Source: Streptacidiphilus carbonis
Lineage (GTDB): Bacteria > Actinomycetota > Actinomycetes > Streptomycetales > Streptomycetaceae
Direction: 5' to 3'
Assembly (NCBI RefSeq): GCF_000787775.1
Contig: NZ_BBPM01000070.1
Coordinates: forward strand, 1 to 34,098
Length of the DNA stretch: 34,098 bases
Below are positions 6,152 to 22,730 of the stretch, piece after piece. The position numbers and the translations under genes are program-made. Positions within the stretch are counted from its first letter, which is position 1. The number at the start of each line of letters is the position of its first letter. The notes beneath the pieces were generated by a model. That model was not told the DNA's origin, ran no database searches, and worked only from the letters and a program-made list of their open reading frames with translations.

Positions 6152-6772
6152 ATGGACGACGCCGAGGAGCTGGAGCTCGTCGCGCTGGAGCGGGAGGCCG
6201 CGCTGCTGGAGGCGCGCGGCCGCCGTCAGCGCGGCGGGGCGGGCAGGCTGCGGCGGCTGCTCCAGCTCCAGGCGCCGGTGCTGGTGGCGATCGCCGTGGT
6301 GCTGCTGCTGTGGGGGCGCAGCGCGCCCCAGCCCGCAACCGCGGCCACCGCCGCGTCCTCGCCCGCGCTGATCGGGATGAGCAGCGCGCACCTCGACCCG
6401 CCTGCGGCCGGAGCCACCACGCTCTCCGCCTATGTGACCATCCGCAACAACGGCGGGACGCCCGACCGGCTGGTGGGGGCCTCCAGCCCGTGGGCGGGCG
6501 CCATCAGTCTCGTGGACGCCTCCTCCCCCGCCGCACTGCCGTGGATCACCGTTCCCGCGCACGGCTCGGTGACGCTGAAGGCGGGTGCGGACCATCTGGC
6601 GCTGAGCGGCCTCAAGCGGGTGCCCAAGGCAGGCGACACCATCCAACTGAACCTGAACTTCGCCAACTCCGGCACGGTGTACGTGTTCGCGCCCGTCGGT
6701 CCCGCCGACAGCCTGACCGTCCTGGACGTCGTGAACGCGATGAAGTACATGGACAGGCTGCCCCCGCAGTAG
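6152..6772 (+). CDS. Membrane-anchored PCu(A)C (DUF461)-like protein lacking copper ligands
   Basis: Protein of 206 residues: a charged N-terminus, one transmembrane helix (about 37-54) and an extracytoplasmic cupredoxin-like domain. The strands SAYVTIRNNGGTPDRLVGAS, then TVPAHGSVTLKAG and HLALSGL, follow the order of the PCu(A)C periplasmic copper chaperone family, which delivers Cu(I) to cytochrome oxidase. Classical members bind copper through H-M...M...H-x-M. Here the first His-Met pair is replaced by ISLVD and the last motif reads HLAL, so only one histidine remains. It may be a structural relative that does not bind copper. Start 6152 is preceded by GGGGAG with about nine bases between. 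Likely co-transcribed with the upstream gene. Confidence 0.75.
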   Translation: MDDAEELELVALEREAALLEARGRRQRGGAGRLRRLLQLQAPVLVAIAVVLLLWGRSAPQPATAATAASSPALIGMSSAHLDPPAAGATTLSAYVTIRNNGGTPDRLVGASSPWAGAISLVDASSPAALPWITVPAHGSVTLKAGADHLALSGLKRVPKAGDTIQLNLNFANSGTVYVFAPVGPADSLTVLDVVNAMKYMDRLPPQ

Positions 6773-6801
6773 CCGGAAAATCAGTGCCGCTCGATGTCCC
6801 C

Positions 6802-6963
6802 GGCCGGGTAGCTTGGACATCGTCCAGGTGCGCAGGTATCGGATACTTCCCTCTGGTGGACGATGTCCGGGTGCGAATCCCGGCCGCTGAGCAACGGTCA
6901 GCGGTGGTGTAAGCAGCACACGTACGTTTCCGAGACCGACCTTGATCTCTGGACTGCATTTTT
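6802..6963 (+). ncRNA. Y-RNA-like unit 1 upstream of Ro60
   Basis: Non-coding structured segment. GGCCGGG (6802-6808) can pair with CCCGGCC (6879-6885), enclosing a perfect 12-bp helix, 6815-6826 with 6857-6868. A second hairpin, CCGCTGA (6884-6890) with TCAGCGG (6898-6904), has a 7-nt loop. The element GGGTGCGAATCC (6869-6880) can also form a tRNA T-arm-like hairpin. The 3' element ACCTTGATCTCTGG (6940-6952 region) recurs in units 2 and 3 and is followed by five T residues at 6959-6963. GTCC at 6865-6868 can pair with GGAC at 6951-6954, closing the unit. The paired 5' GCGAA / 3' TTGATCTC elements and the position next to a Ro60 gene suggest a Y RNA. Exact ends are uncertain. Confidence 0.5.
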
Positions 6964-6976
6964 GAAGACTTCCGAC

Positions 6977-7061
6977 TGCACCTCCCGGTGCGAAGGCCCC
7001 CGGTTACTTCTCTCTGAAAGAACCGTACCGGCGGCCGCCATTGATCTCGGGAGGACCTGCA
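6977..7061 (+). ncRNA. Y-RNA-like unit 2 upstream of Ro60
   Basis: An 85-nt segment whose ends pair well: TGCA (6977-6980) with TGCA (7058-7061), and CCTCCCG (6981-6987) with CGGGAGG (7048-7054), with an ACC bulge on the 3' side. Directly inside the helix are the two elements shared with the neighbouring units, GGTGCGAAGG (6987-6996) and TTGATCTC (7041-7048). A well-formed internal hairpin, CGGTT (7001-7005) with AACCG (7021-7025), extended by CTTC/GAAAG, fills the loop. From memory, vertebrate Y RNAs carry similar opposed strands (GGUCCGAAGG and CUUGACU) where Ro60 binds. It lacks a recognisable D-arm, unlike unit 3. Confidence 0.55.
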
Positions 7062-7064
7062 ACG

Positions 7065-7168
7065 GGGGTGCCTGGAGCCCGCTCGACCGGGCGCGAACCC
7101 GGCCGGCAGCTCAGTGGCAGAGCGCTCGGCACGACAAGCCCGTCACCGACCTCGATCTCGGGCACCCC
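7065..7168 (+). ncRNA. Y-RNA-like unit 3 with tRNA D-arm mimic (YrlA-like)
   Basis: The ends GGGGTGCC (7065-7072) and GGCACCCC (7161-7168) pair perfectly; after small bulges GAG (7075-7077) pairs with CTC (7157-7159) and CGA (7084-7086) with TCG (7152-7154), giving the interrupted stem expected of a Y RNA. Inside are a T-arm-like hairpin, CCGGG-CGCGAA-CCCGG (7087-7102), and a textbook tRNA D-arm, GCTC-AGTGGCA-GAGC (7109-7123). The T-like arm comes before the D-arm, the reverse of a tRNA, and no acceptor stem or CCA end is present. Known bacterial YrlA RNAs are Ro60 partners that carry a tRNA-like module, so this is the best YrlA candidate. The Ro60 start codon follows 34 bases later. Confidence 0.6.
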
Positions 7169-7202
7169 GCCGCATGTCCTCCTCCTGCCAAGGGGGGCTT
7201 TC

Positions 7203-8834
7203 ATGTCCAGGTTCAACACCCGCACCGCCAAGCCGGTCGGCACCTCGCCCGTCGCCGCGACCGGGCAGACCGCTGCCACCCACGAGGGCGGAACCGGTTA
7301 TGTCCGCGACGCCAGGAGTGAGCTCTTCCTTCTGGCCGTCGCCAACTTCGTCGGCCAGGACACCTTCTACGAGAACGGCGGCGACCGCGACGACCGCTAC
7401 ACCCAGCTCGTCCGCAAGCTCGCCGTCGAGGACCCCGAGTGGACCGCCGGCCTGCTCAAGTGGCTCCGCGCCGACGGCAACATGCGCACCGCGTCCCTGG
7501 TGGGCGCCGCCGAGTTCACCCGGGCCCGGCTCGACGCCGCACTGCCGGGCGTGTCCCGCCAGGTGGTCGAGTCGGTACTGCAGCGCCCGGACGAGCCCGG
7601 CGAGCTGCTGGCCTACTGGACCGGCCGCTACGGCCGGAGCCTGCCCAAGCCCGTGAAGCGCGGCGTCAGCGACGCCGTCCAGCGTCTCTACGACAGTCGC
7701 GCCCTGCTCAAGTACGACACCGCTTCCAAGGGCTACCGCTTCGGCGACGTCCTCGAACTGGTCCATGCCGCACCCCACCCCGACAAGCCCTGGCAGGGCG
7801 ACCTGTTCAAGCACGCCATCGACCGGCGCCACGGCCGCGACACCGAGATCCCGGCCCGGCTGGGCCCGGTCCGCGCACACGCCCTCCTCAACGGCATCCC
7901 GGTCCAGGAGCGGCGGGCCGCCATGCTCGGACAGGGCACCCCGCAGCAGAACGGACTGTTCCGGACCGCCCACCTCACCTGGGAGGGGCTGGCCGGCTGG
8001 CTGCAGGGGCCGATGGACGCGCAGGCGTGGGAGGCCGTGATCCCGTCCATGGGCTACATGTCGCTGGTTCGGAACCTGCGCAACTTCGACCAGGCCGGGG
8101 TGTCCGACGCGGTCGCCGAGCAGGTGGCGGCGAAGCTGGCCGACCCTGCCGAGGTCGCCCGATCGCGGCAGCTGCCCATGCGGTTCTACTCCGCGTTCAA
8201 CGCGGCCCCTTCGCTGCGCTGGGGGTGGGCGCTGGAGAAGGCCCTGACCGCGTGCCTCGCCAACATCCCGGTGCTGCCGGGCCGGACCCTGGTCCTGGTG
8301 GACACCAGCTCCTCCATGCAGGCCGGCTTCTCCAAGGACGGCACCCTGATGCGCTGGGACGCCGCGGCCCTGTTCGGGATCGCCCTGGGGCAGCGCTGCC
8401 GGACTGCCGACGTCGTGTCGTTCTCCTCCGCCCGGTACTACCGCAAGGACAAGCCCGGAGCGAAGGTCAAGGCGTTCCCGCTCGCTGCCGGGGAGTCGCT
8501 GCTGAGCGGCGTGAAGCGGTGGAAGGACGGCGGCTGGTTCCTCGGCGGCGGCACCGACACCGCCGCGGCCCTGCGCGCCACCTTCAAGGGCCACGACCGG
8601 GTGGTCGTCGTCACCGACGAGCAGGCCGGCGCCGACCCCGTCGAGGTCACCAGGTCGATCCCGGAGGCGGTGCCGATGTACACCTGGAACCTCGCCGGGT
8701 ACGCGGCCGGCCACGCGCCGTCGGGTGGCCGCAACCGACACGCGTTCGGCGGGCTGACCGATGCCGCGTTCCGGATGGTGCCGCTGCTGGAGGCCGGGGC
8801 CCGCGCGGCATGGCCCTGGCTGCATTCCGCCTGA
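7203..8834 (+). CDS. rsr: Ro60/Rsr ortholog: TROVE and vWA domain RNA-binding protein
   Basis: Cytoplasmic ring-shaped RNA-binding protein of 543 residues, close in length to the Deinococcus Ro protein Rsr. Residues from about 40 to 360 form the helical-repeat TROVE domain (for example GQDTFYENGGDRDDRYTQLV and NMRTASLVGAAEF). The C-terminal von Willebrand factor A domain begins near 360, with the MIDAS motif D367-x-S369-x-S371 (VDTSSS), the later Thr in GGGTDTA and Asp in VVVVTDEQ. In bacteria such proteins bind Y RNAs and, with exoribonucleases such as PNPase, act in structured-RNA decay and rRNA maturation. ATG 7203 follows AAGGGGGG (7190-7197). The three RNA units directly upstream on the same strand support the assignment. 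No RtcB or nuclease gene is adjacent. Confidence 0.93.
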   Translation: MSRFNTRTAKPVGTSPVAATGQTAATHEGGTGYVRDARSELFLLAVANFVGQDTFYENGGDRDDRYTQLVRKLAVEDPEWTAGLLKWLRADGNMRTASLVGAAEFTRARLDAALPGVSRQVVESVLQRPDEPGELLAYWTGRYGRSLPKPVKRGVSDAVQRLYDSRALLKYDTASKGYRFGDVLELVHAAPHPDKPWQGDLFKHAIDRRHGRDTEIPARLGPVRAHALLNGIPVQERRAAMLGQGTPQQNGLFRTAHLTWEGLAGWLQGPMDAQAWEAVIPSMGYMSLVRNLRNFDQAGVSDAVAEQVAAKLADPAEVARSRQLPMRFYSAFNAAPSLRWGWALEKALTACLANIPVLPGRTLVLVDTSSSMQAGFSKDGTLMRWDAAALFGIALGQRCRTADVVSFSSARYYRKDKPGAKVKAFPLAAGESLLSGVKRWKDGGWFLGGGTDTAAALRATFKGHDRVVVVTDEQAGADPVEVTRSIPEAVPMYTWNLAGYAAGHAPSGGRNRHAFGGLTDAAFRMVPLLEAGARAAWPWLHSA

Positions 8835-22058: not shown

Positions 22059-22730
22059 ATGGACATCGTCGAGGTACTGCCGAGACTGCGTATGCTCCGC
22101 TTCCCTGTGGGAGCGGCCTACCTGTGGCGGGACGGCCGCGAGTTGACCCTGATCGACACCGGGACGGCCGACTGCGCCGCGGAGATCGAAGAGGCGCTGG
22201 ACGGCGAACTGCGTCGGATCGTCCTGACGCACTGGCACGAGGACCACACCGGCTCAGCGGCCGCGCTGGCCGCACGGCACGGGGCGGAGGTGGTGGCGCA
22301 CCGGCTGGATGCTCCCGTGATCCGCGGACACGTGGCGGGGGCTCCGGCGGTGCTTGAGGAGTTCGAGATACCGATCAGGGCAGCGCTTCCGCCGCTGCCC
22401 CCGGCCGCACCGTGTCGGGTGGACCGGGAGGTGGAGCAAGGCGAGGTGCTGGAGTTCGGAGGCGGAGCCGTCGTGGTCGGCGTCCCCGGGCACACGGACG
22501 GCTCGATCGCGCTGCATCTGCCCGAGACGAGGGTTCTGTTCACCGGCGATGCGGTCGCCAACGTCGGCCGAACCATGCTGGGCGTCTTCAACACCGACCG
22601 CGCCAAGGCCGTCAAGTCGCTGCACCGACTGGCGGACCTGGCGGTCGAAACCGTGCTCTTCGGGCATGGCGACCCGATCGTCCACGGCGCAGCGTTCGCC
22701 CTGCGGCGAGCGGCCTCGGCAGCCGAGTGA
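22059..22730 (+). CDS. Metallo-beta-lactamase-fold hydrolase
   Basis: Cytoplasmic hydrolase of 223 residues. The metal-binding motif T-H58-W-H60-E-D62-H63 is intact, with the further ligands H145 (GVPGHTDGS), D164 (FTGDAV) and H203 (FGHGDPI), so it should bind two Zn or Fe ions. This set matches the glyoxalase II/lactonase-like branch of the superfamily. Substrates in this branch range from thioesters to lactones and cannot be chosen here. ATG 22059 is supported by AGG about eight bases upstream. It is convergent with the methyltransferase gene, 32 bp away. Confidence 0.9.
   Translation: MDIVEVLPRLRMLRFPVGAAYLWRDGRELTLIDTGTADCAAEIEEALDGELRRIVLTHWHEDHTGSAAALAARHGAEVVAHRLDAPVIRGHVAGAPAVLEEFEIPIRAALPPLPPAAPCRVDREVEQGEVLEFGGGAVVVGVPGHTDGSIALHLPETRVLFTGDAVANVGRTMLGVFNTDRAKAVKSLHRLADLAVETVLFGHGDPIVHGAAFALRRAASAAE

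Follow-up and report, generated by a model that had tools for sequence, protein, structure and literature searches.

A putative Y RNA array directly upstream of the Ro60 gene of Streptacidiphilus carbonis and its relatives

The Ro60 locus of S. carbonis

The stretch analysed here, 34,098 nucleotides of Streptacidiphilus carbonis (contig NZ_BBPM01000070.1, referred to below as the window), is one contig of an 8.46-Mb genome and carries a Ro60 (Rsr) gene whose product is the sole TROVE match in the whole genome and matched two distinct solved TROVE-domain sequences (E 3.2e-26). An earlier note, made from the letters alone, had placed three tandem Y-RNA-like units before this gene. Our analysis supports this for the first two units, here called Y1 and Y2, by covariation, covariance-model scores and co-occurrence with Ro60, whereas the third, Y3, looks degenerate. 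A Y RNA-like reading of Y1 and Y2 directly upstream of Ro60 is well supported. The features of the region are:

6809 to 6814, plus strand: putative -10 element TAGCTT of an array promoter, a TANNNT at a fixed distance before the Y1 stem
6822 to 6954, plus strand: Y1, predicted YrlA-type Y RNA with a tRNA-like domain inside (covariance model R2, 93.4 bits, E 1.3e-18)
6848 to 6860, plus strand: weak anticodon-arm-like hairpin of Y1, TCC-CTCTGGT-GGA, three base pairs only
6867 to 6883, plus strand: T-arm-like hairpin of Y1, CCGGG-TGCGAAT-CCCGG, containing the GGTGCGAA earlier assigned to unit 1
6884 to 6904, plus strand: acceptor-like hairpin of Y1, CCGCTGA-GCAACGG-TCAGCGG, at the position of helix 5 of the YrlA-type structure
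6907 to 6919, plus strand: D-arm-like hairpin of Y1, GTGT-AAGCA-GCAC, similar to the D-arm of tRNA-Gln with three loop letters fewer
6981 to 7054, plus strand: Y2, predicted minimal Y RNA without a tRNA-like domain (R2, 46.4 bits, E 1.5e-8)
7065 to 7168, plus strand: Y3, probable YrlA-type relic, which retains the outer stem and the 3' core and lacks the 5' Ro-binding strand as well as the next motif
7087 to 7102, plus strand: T-arm-like hairpin remnant of Y3, CCGGG-CGCGAA-CCCGG, by position and letters, with the GGCGCGAA earlier assigned to unit 3
7109 to 7123, plus strand: D-arm-like hairpin of Y3, GCTC-AGTGGCA-GAGC, within 20 letters that are 95% identical to the D-arm of tRNA-Val(CAC) of the same genome (E 8e-5)
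7176 to 7198, plus strand: hairpin GTCCTCCT/AGGGGGGC (arms 7176-7183 and 7191-7198), whose 3' arm is the Shine-Dalgarno (SD) sequence of the Ro60 gene
7203 to 8834, plus strand: Ro60 (Rsr) gene, 543 amino acids, TROVE domain (PF05731, E 4.3e-13)

R2 is a covariance model of long units which contains no window sequence; its E-values on the window refer to a search space of 34 kb and, like those of R1, are rough owing to a shortened calibration. The short-unit model R1 includes Y2 of the window, as does alignment A2, and the 76.7 bits of R1 on Y2 are for this reason no evidence.

The lower stem of Y1 is formed by GTCCAG (6822-6827) and CTGGAC (6949-6954), with GGTGCGCAGG and TTGATCT as Ro-binding strands, and its minimum-energy fold contains the lower stem as well as the T-, acceptor-like and D-arms. 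These arms stand in the permuted order that places Y1 in the YrlA class. Y2 is intact, with the stem CCTCCCG/CGGGAGG (6981-6987/7048-7054) and the cores GGTGCGAAGG and TTGATCT. In both units the two ends form an outer stem together with the conserved Ro-binding region, and both adjoin the Ro60/Rsr gene. Y3 has an intact outer stem (GGGGTGCC/GGCACCCC, 7065-7072/7161-7168) and gives only a partial match to R2 (14.6 bits); it does not possess both Ro-binding strands and, because the 5' strand is missing, it is classed as a relic of a Y RNA and not as a Y RNA. Y3 of S. carbonis is probably a decayed third copy, the relic of a YrlA-type Y RNA, so that two of the three units look functional in this species. 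Each of the three units has a copy of a 29-nt 3' element, located at 6925, 7024 and 7135 and thus 99 and 111 nt apart.

The borders of the units differ from those first proposed. The motif GGYGCGAA does occur at three sites (6870, 6987 and 7090), but as a shared 5' element it holds for unit 2 only, where it is the Ro-binding strand; its copies in units 1 and 3 are part of a T-arm within the tRNA-like domain. Comparison with relatives identifies the Ro-binding 5' strand as GGTGCGNAGG after the stem, which is found in the window only at 6827 (unit 1, overlooked before) and at 6987 (unit 2), with 0.96 matches expected. The former borders were rejected because of this strand at 6827 and because of the T-arm identity of GGYGCGAA at 6870 and 7090. 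The 3' element YTYGATCTC is present in units 1 and 3 (6941 and 7151), its only other match in the window being at 22182 on the opposite strand, and is not matched by the element of unit 2, ATTGATCTC. The complementary flanks of units 2 and 3, CCTCCCG/CGGGAGG and GGGGTGCC/GGCACCCC, were both recovered letter for letter.

Conservation and covariation in relatives

The five closest named relatives, whose Ro60 proteins are 70-73% identical, all have two or three units upstream of Ro60. These follow one plan, namely a stem, GGTGCGNAGG or similar, a variable interior, TTGATCT or similar and the other half of the stem, and the interior of most long units contains a tRNA-like series of T-arm, acceptor-like hairpin and D-arm. 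The usual order before Ro60 is Y1-Y2-Y3, that is YrlA-type, minimal and YrlA-type. In detail, Y1 has the stem GTCCAG and measures about 125 nt from core to core, Y2 has the stem CCTCCCG and mostly spans 55-63 nt, though 5 of 64 measure 84 to 100, and Y3 has GGGTGCCCG or similar as stem and again about 125 nt.

For a census, 89 upstream regions were scanned (80 from relatives' loci, eight from the genus and the window; L008 duplicates L086). Four units were detected in one region, three in 23, two in 51, one in eight and none in six. Three of the six zero counts are artefactual because L085, L087 and L091 were read on the wrong strand; on the correct one L085 holds three units and L091 one, while L087 is from the same genome as L009. 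In a further zero, L038, a Y1-like unit is visible by eye. An array of three, which had been thought unusual, is not so in this family, since 24 of the 89 regions have at least three detected units. The maximum of four in a row was seen in Peterkaempfera griseoplana. Two loci, L016 and L027, carry a reduced Y1-like hairpin (GTCCAGG...CCTGGAC) that lacks the 3' core, at most about 65 nt upstream of Ro60, where a full unit was not detected.

With position weights for cores and stem that had been trained on relatives, window excluded, real units scored 27-58, whereas 534 shuffled regions had a 99th percentile of 14.5 and a maximum of 24.1, and among the 89 reverse complements one reached 16.5. 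In the window, unit 1 scored 45.3 and unit 2 48.3; unit 3 was not found.

The alignment with upstream regions of rsr in related streptomycetes that the earlier note had proposed was carried out, and covariation was found. Among 146 units detected from their cores alone, lower-stem pairs 2, 5 and 6 are intact in 145, 146 and 142 units, respectively, whereas 500 shuffles reached at most 104, 99 and 91. Pairs 1 and 3 are nearly invariant and pair 8 is not kept. As much of the variation falls between Y1, Y2 and Y3, this covariation represents few independent events. For 29 YrlA-type units (13 Y1 and 16 Y3, window excluded), 96.9% of the cells are paired, compared with 77.7% after shuffling and at most 46.6% in six slid versions, and 19 of 33 pairs changed on both sides; on each of five measures, all 500 shuffles fell short of the real alignment. 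This alignment had also served to predict the structure, but the controls are far removed. Helix 5, the acceptor-like hairpin, has changes on both sides in 7 of its 8 pairs, while the four D-arm pairs are invariant and hence uninformative either way. In 33 short units, which include Y2 of the window, 97.6% of the cells are paired (shuffled 93.6%, slid 58.8%), and both sides have changed in 4 of 15 pairs. The proposal that structure is kept while sequence changes is thus borne out for units 1 and 2 by covariation and covariance-model scores.

These results also bear on the possibility that the units are nothing but chance short repeats in a GC-rich intergenic region. GGYGCGAA by itself is weak evidence and is not strongly enriched, with seven matches in the window against 4.0 expected and 14 of 100 shuffles reaching seven, which fits chance. 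The units, however, are kept throughout Streptomycetaceae and in some other actinomycetes, and the controls fall far short of them; we regard this explanation as exceedingly improbable.

Linkage to Ro60 and unlinked Y RNAs

Within the genus, R1 matches (E <=0.001) were found in 8 of 14 genomes, which are exactly those eight with more than a 61-aa fragment of Ro60. In the family (E <=1e-4), 50 of 101 genomes have R1 matches, 59 a Ro60 match and 49 both; the genomes are related and these counts are accordingly not independent. Of 63 family matches, 56 precede Ro60 on its own strand at a distance of 6-342 nt and seven are unlinked, a count that omits small extra Ro60 pieces of four genomes (G002, G013, G044 and G084) and uses the gene start of G013 from the genus search. 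The filters for the family were stricter than those for the genus, so that the unlinked Y RNA of S. carbonis itself was missed in the family count. Ten genomes match Ro60 without an R1 match: two have 61-aa fragments only, all seven that were fetched have YrlA-type matches upstream, and the tenth is G084. Conversely, a Y RNA but no TROVE match was found in G034.

The S. carbonis genome contains a further predicted Y RNA which is not near Ro60 (C99:49739-49839, minus strand; 45.0 bits with R2 and 42.4 with R1). A promoter-like TACGGT lies just 5' of it, and a sugar-transporter gene about 0.5 kb upstream with an unassigned open reading frame between. The sister genome G001 has two stand-alone arrays of three units each (L109 2107-2501 and L110 2643-3020), far from its only Ro60 match; no TROVE gene was found among their scanned neighbours, and one of them is followed by an Exo_endo_phos (exonuclease-type) gene. 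A single Y RNA was seen upstream of priA in four genomes, G055 (L179/L199), G021 (L180/L192), G034 (L183) and G064 (L195), its opposite neighbour being metK, identified by Pfam in G021 and from similarity of the translation in G055 and G034. As a general rule this position was rejected, with 3 of 30 priA loci among those listed (57 genomes have a priA match) plus the previously known G034.

Further variants concern the Ro60 loci themselves. In G009 (L111 3448-3760) a second Y1-Y3 pair lies about 2 kb upstream of the Ro60 array beside a NUDIX gene, and the Y2 of L111 has apparently collapsed to the bare hairpin CCTCCCG-CTC-GCGGGAGG. A second, more distant Ro60 in G006 has its own Y RNA with a different stem (L091 / L115 2340-2417, minus strand). 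In two genomes the Ro60 match is in pieces despite upstream Y RNAs, two in G002 (L088/L092) and five in G013 (L089, L093-L096), which we read as sequencing errors or gene decay.

Likeness of the long units to tRNA

The T-arm of Y1 has 14 of 15 letters in common with the T-arms of tRNA-Thr, -Gly and -Glu of its own genome. Its D-arm has the eight letters TGGTGTAA in common with tRNA-Gln(CUG), a match which is not significant alone (BLAST E 6.3); compared with tRNA-Gln, the D-loop lacks three letters, and the D-arm of G001 is the same. The T-arm remnant of Y3 has a weak likeness to the T-arm of tRNA-Glu (CTC) (12 of 13 letters, E 1.2). In Streptomyces loci L018, L064, L079 and L039 the segment of Y3 after the acceptor-like hairpin reads like GTGGCGGAACGGAAGACGCGCC, which, we presume, recalls the D-arm of a leucine tRNA.

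U55, the pseudouridine site of tRNAs, forms a pair with G18 in the D-loop. At the equivalent site of its T-loop, Y1 has a G both in the window and in G001, while 84 of 86 units scored have TTC there (one was counted twice and three more have no recognised T-arm). That Y1 of the window is decaying, as the odd T-loop might suggest, was rejected: since the sister genome shares both T-loop and D-arm, the T-loop is taken as a kept variant. The joint change of T-loop and D-loop may mean that the U55-G18 tertiary contact was given up, in what would be one shared event.

ARAGORN called no tRNA in the window and reported false tRNAs in or across units at 5 of 18 related loci. These pseudo-tRNAs and the tRNA-like D- and T-arms would fit a further explanation, in which the locus consists of degenerate tRNA genes or a tRNA-derived array without any Ro function. 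Against it stand the permuted order of the arms, the covarying outer stem that encloses them, the absence of ARAGORN calls from the window, the lack of any tRNA-like part in Y2 and the way in which the units follow Ro60 in their occurrence; we consider it very unlikely.

An anticodon-like arm

Many long units of relatives have a hairpin with a 7-nt loop directly before the T-arm. The loops were compared with the 45 distinct anticodon loops from 59 tRNA sequences of the S. carbonis genome (51 fetched loci). Exact identity was used as criterion in place of an earlier one that had been picked after seeing examples; duplicates were removed, 3 of 102 units were unusable, 20 of the 37 R2 matches of the fetched Ro60 genomes without an R1 match were taken, and the two long units of L109 were left out. 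A loop identical to a tRNA anticodon loop was found in 45 of 99 units, compared with a mean of 0.06 and a maximum of 2 of 99 for shuffled segments. By unit type, in named and genus loci, it was found in 31 of 33 Y1 and 8 of 44 Y3. Hairpins with any loop in this region numbered 57 (shuffle mean 23.9, maximum 37), 12 of them with a non-tRNA loop, including Y1 of the window, so that the evidence rests on the letters of the loop, hairpins as such being common in shuffles.

Eleven loops were seen, those of tRNA-Met, Ser, Asn, Lys, Ile, Asp, Pro, Gly, Gln, Thr and Cys, the single Cys loop being possibly due to chance. Position 33 is T and position 38 is A in all 45 units, position 37 is A or G, and position 35 takes all four letters. 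The anticodon-like stem is TTCCA/TGGGG in 31 of the 45, and three wholly different compensated versions exist (TTCTC/GAGAG, TTCAC/GTGAG and TTCTTT/AAAGAA). Neither the 45 units nor the 11 loops are independent events, as loops are inherited by descent and many differ by one letter. The loop of Y1 in the window, CTCTGGT, is one letter off the loop TTCTGGT of its own tRNA-Gln(CUG); in the same region of Y1 of G001 no anticodon-arm-like hairpin was found.

Three observations speak against an anticodon arm. The consensus fold of the 29 long units does not contain it, its TTC is part of a TACTTC motif that also occurs in short units without the arm, and most Y3 units have no arm, the version in Y1 of the window being weak. 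It nevertheless seems that in many relatives the tRNA mimicry includes an anticodon-like loop whose letters differ by species. The fourth, anticodon-like arm may be new, since a review of YrlA, as excerpted, describes a likeness to D, T and acceptor arms (PMC8394870). Among the matches listed, titles and abstract openings of open-licence PMC articles held nothing on streptomycete Y RNA arrays or on an anticodon arm in bacterial Y RNAs.

A more far-reaching proposal, which we put forward tentatively and think rather doubtful, is that the YrlA-type Y RNAs of these actinomycetes, Y1 above all, are complete four-armed, circularly permuted mimics of tRNA, in which the frame of the anticodon loop stays fixed and its anticodon letters are swapped from species to species. 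They might serve as exchangeable decoys or baits for enzymes that read the anticodon loop, such as anticodon nucleases or modifiers of positions 34 and 37. Ro60 would hold them, and in certain genomes they would have escaped linkage to its gene as stand-alone arrays. The decoy role is a guess; a role of this type has been raised as a possibility for Salmonella YrlA, according to the text excerpted (PMC7790460).

Promoter-like element and Shine-Dalgarno hairpin

In all 33 loci in which Y1 comes first, a TANNNT precedes it at one fixed distance, as it does in the window. With 6 to 18 nt allowed, 39 of the 80 first units have such an element, where shuffles would lead one to expect 5.9, and 2 of 66 later units do. 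The element lies in the expected range in 5 of 37 loci with Y2 first and 0 of 7 with Y3 first (5 of 44 together), the first units of the remaining loci among the 80 not being classed as Y1, Y2 or Y3. Several loci without Y1 have, by eye, a TANNNT-like element a few letters further upstream, and they look as though Y1 had been lost from between the promoter-like element and the next unit. The fixed place before Y1 and the near absence before later units suggest that a single promoter probably serves Y1, the later units and rsr.

Two near-palindromes, TGGACATCGTCCA (6814-6826) and TGGACGATGTCCG (6857-6869), lie across the presumed promoter and the start of Y1 and are possibly operator sites. They form a perfect 12-bp inverted repeat (6815-6826/6857-6868), which was not seen in G001. 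As an RNA hairpin this repeat does form in a fold from 6813, yet it was dropped because a likely start near 6821 leaves most of the first arm untranscribed and because the sister genome lacks it.

Downstream, the array abuts the hairpin that masks the SD sequence of Ro60. Such a hairpin with at least five G-C pairs was found in 68 of 85 loci including the window; in 20 control rounds, in which the upstream part was shuffled and the SD sequence kept, the mean was 21.9 and the maximum 31.

The abutting hairpin, and a promoter-like element that occurs before Y1 when it comes first and almost never before later units, could also be expected if the region were a structured 5' leader of the rsr mRNA acting in cis only, to which Ro60 would bind in order to shut off its own translation via the SD hairpin, without any free Y RNAs. 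A pure leader leaves unexplained, however, the Y RNAs unlinked to Ro60, such as that of S. carbonis itself and the two arrays of three units in G001, and a tRNA-like domain kept by covariation would be superfluous for control in cis. We therefore hold this explanation to be unlikely, though less so than the two discussed above.

Interpretation of the array

We favour, with a probability of roughly 85%, the reading of 6809-7198 as a Y RNA array with one promoter that runs into rsr. It combines conserved structure, a promoter-like element at a fixed place, linkage to Ro60, resemblance to tRNA and the SD hairpin, all of which are read directly from the sequence, with a proposed course of events. 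The array would be transcribed from its one promoter and on into rsr, and would be cut into units. Ro60 from the adjoining gene would hold the lower stems of Y1 and Y2 with their GGTGCGNAGG and TTGATCT cores. The tRNA-like domain of Y1 would recruit a partner, either PNPase, whose gene is present in the genome, or enzymes that handle tRNA, whereas Y2, consisting of the stem alone, may be a simpler lid or stabiliser and Y3 has probably decayed. The SD hairpin might decouple the output of Y RNA from the translation of Ro60, by termination, attenuation or translational control. By analogy with Deinococcus, the whole could have a role in the decay of structured RNA.

Several observations weigh against this reading. 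At the gathering cut-offs of Rfam no Y RNA unit was matched in the window, and no Y RNA family at 17 related loci. Folded alone, Y1 is no more stable than its shuffles (z -0.60) and Y3 barely more so (z -1.33); Y2 stands out (z -2.79). The 5' Ro-binding strand of Y3 was missing in the search by cores and stem, with R2 and in an alignment with seven other Y3 units. To these are added the G in the T-loop of Y1 and the few elements in range where Y2 or Y3 comes first, both described above.

The Infernal search with Y RNA and YrlA models suggested in the earlier note gave, in the window, a match on Y2 below cut-off. In detail, a relaxed search of 6500-7400 returned four families, among which Deinococcus_Y_RNA on Y2 was top by bits (18.3) and third by E-value (2.1), behind two unrelated families with slightly lower values; this is far from the cut-off of 80 bits for RF01053. 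The same family gave a relaxed match on Y3 of L003 (E 0.065). The YrlA model (RF02553) did not match Y1 of the window even at E 10. In the two relatives searched under relaxed conditions it matched Y3 of L002 (42.4 bits, E 2.4e-8) and Y1 of L003 (32.9 bits, E 1.7e-5), so that its cut-off of 69 bits is reached neither in the window nor by these units, and Y1 is not assigned to RF02553.

Routine annotation is accordingly likely to overlook or misname the Y RNAs of Streptomycetaceae, because none of them reached an Rfam cut-off at the 17 loci or in the window and because ARAGORN reads parts of some as tRNAs at 5 of 18 loci. In addition, the purpose of tRNA mimicry in bacterial Y RNAs becomes testable in streptomycetes, since the family offers natural variants: arrays of two kinds of unit, loops like those of up to 11 tRNAs, altered T- and D-arms and unlinked Y RNAs.

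The gene 5' of the Ro60 locus encodes a copper chaperone PCu(A)C domain and the gene 3' of it a LysE domain. In two Kitasatospora-like loci, Rfam Scr4115 was found above its cut-off on the minus strand (L013 119-231 and L024 118-227), about 2 kb upstream of the Y array.

Comparison with known systems

Likely Y RNAs near Ro60 have reportedly been noted in more than 250 species (Chen 2014). Bacterial Y RNAs beside Ro60 with tRNA-like domains are already known, and the present locus is a streptomycete version of them with a three-unit layout; what is fresh is that this layout is common in the family, that a hairpin masks the SD sequence, that loops resemble anticodon loops and that some copies are unlinked.

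The closest likeness is to YrlA (RF02553) of Salmonella and Mycobacterium smegmatis, which also lies next to Ro60/rsr and has an outer stem around a T-arm, an acceptor-like hairpin and a D-arm, in that order. Unlike in YrlA, the array here has a minimal unit between two YrlA-type units, and many relatives add the anticodon-arm-like hairpin. YrlA is described, in the text excerpted, as carrying the tRNA modifications dihydrouridine, by DusA, and pseudouridine, by TruB (PMC8394870).

The Y RNA of Deinococcus radiodurans (RF01053), the scaffold of the Rsr-Y RNA-PNPase complex RYPER, resembles the units here in its stem with the Ro site. Its stem binds Rsr, and a region of two hairpins, one of them T-arm-like, binds PNPase, as the excerpted text states (PMC6181284); Y2, in contrast, is without two such hairpins.

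In the RNA repair operon rsr-yrlBA-rtcBA of Salmonella, Y RNAs are encoded together with rsr, again according to an excerpt (PMC7790460). The present locus is like it in that Y RNAs and rsr stand together, and unlike it in that the RtcB gene is not beside the locus, the two RtcB matches of the genome both being on contigs other than that of Ro60.

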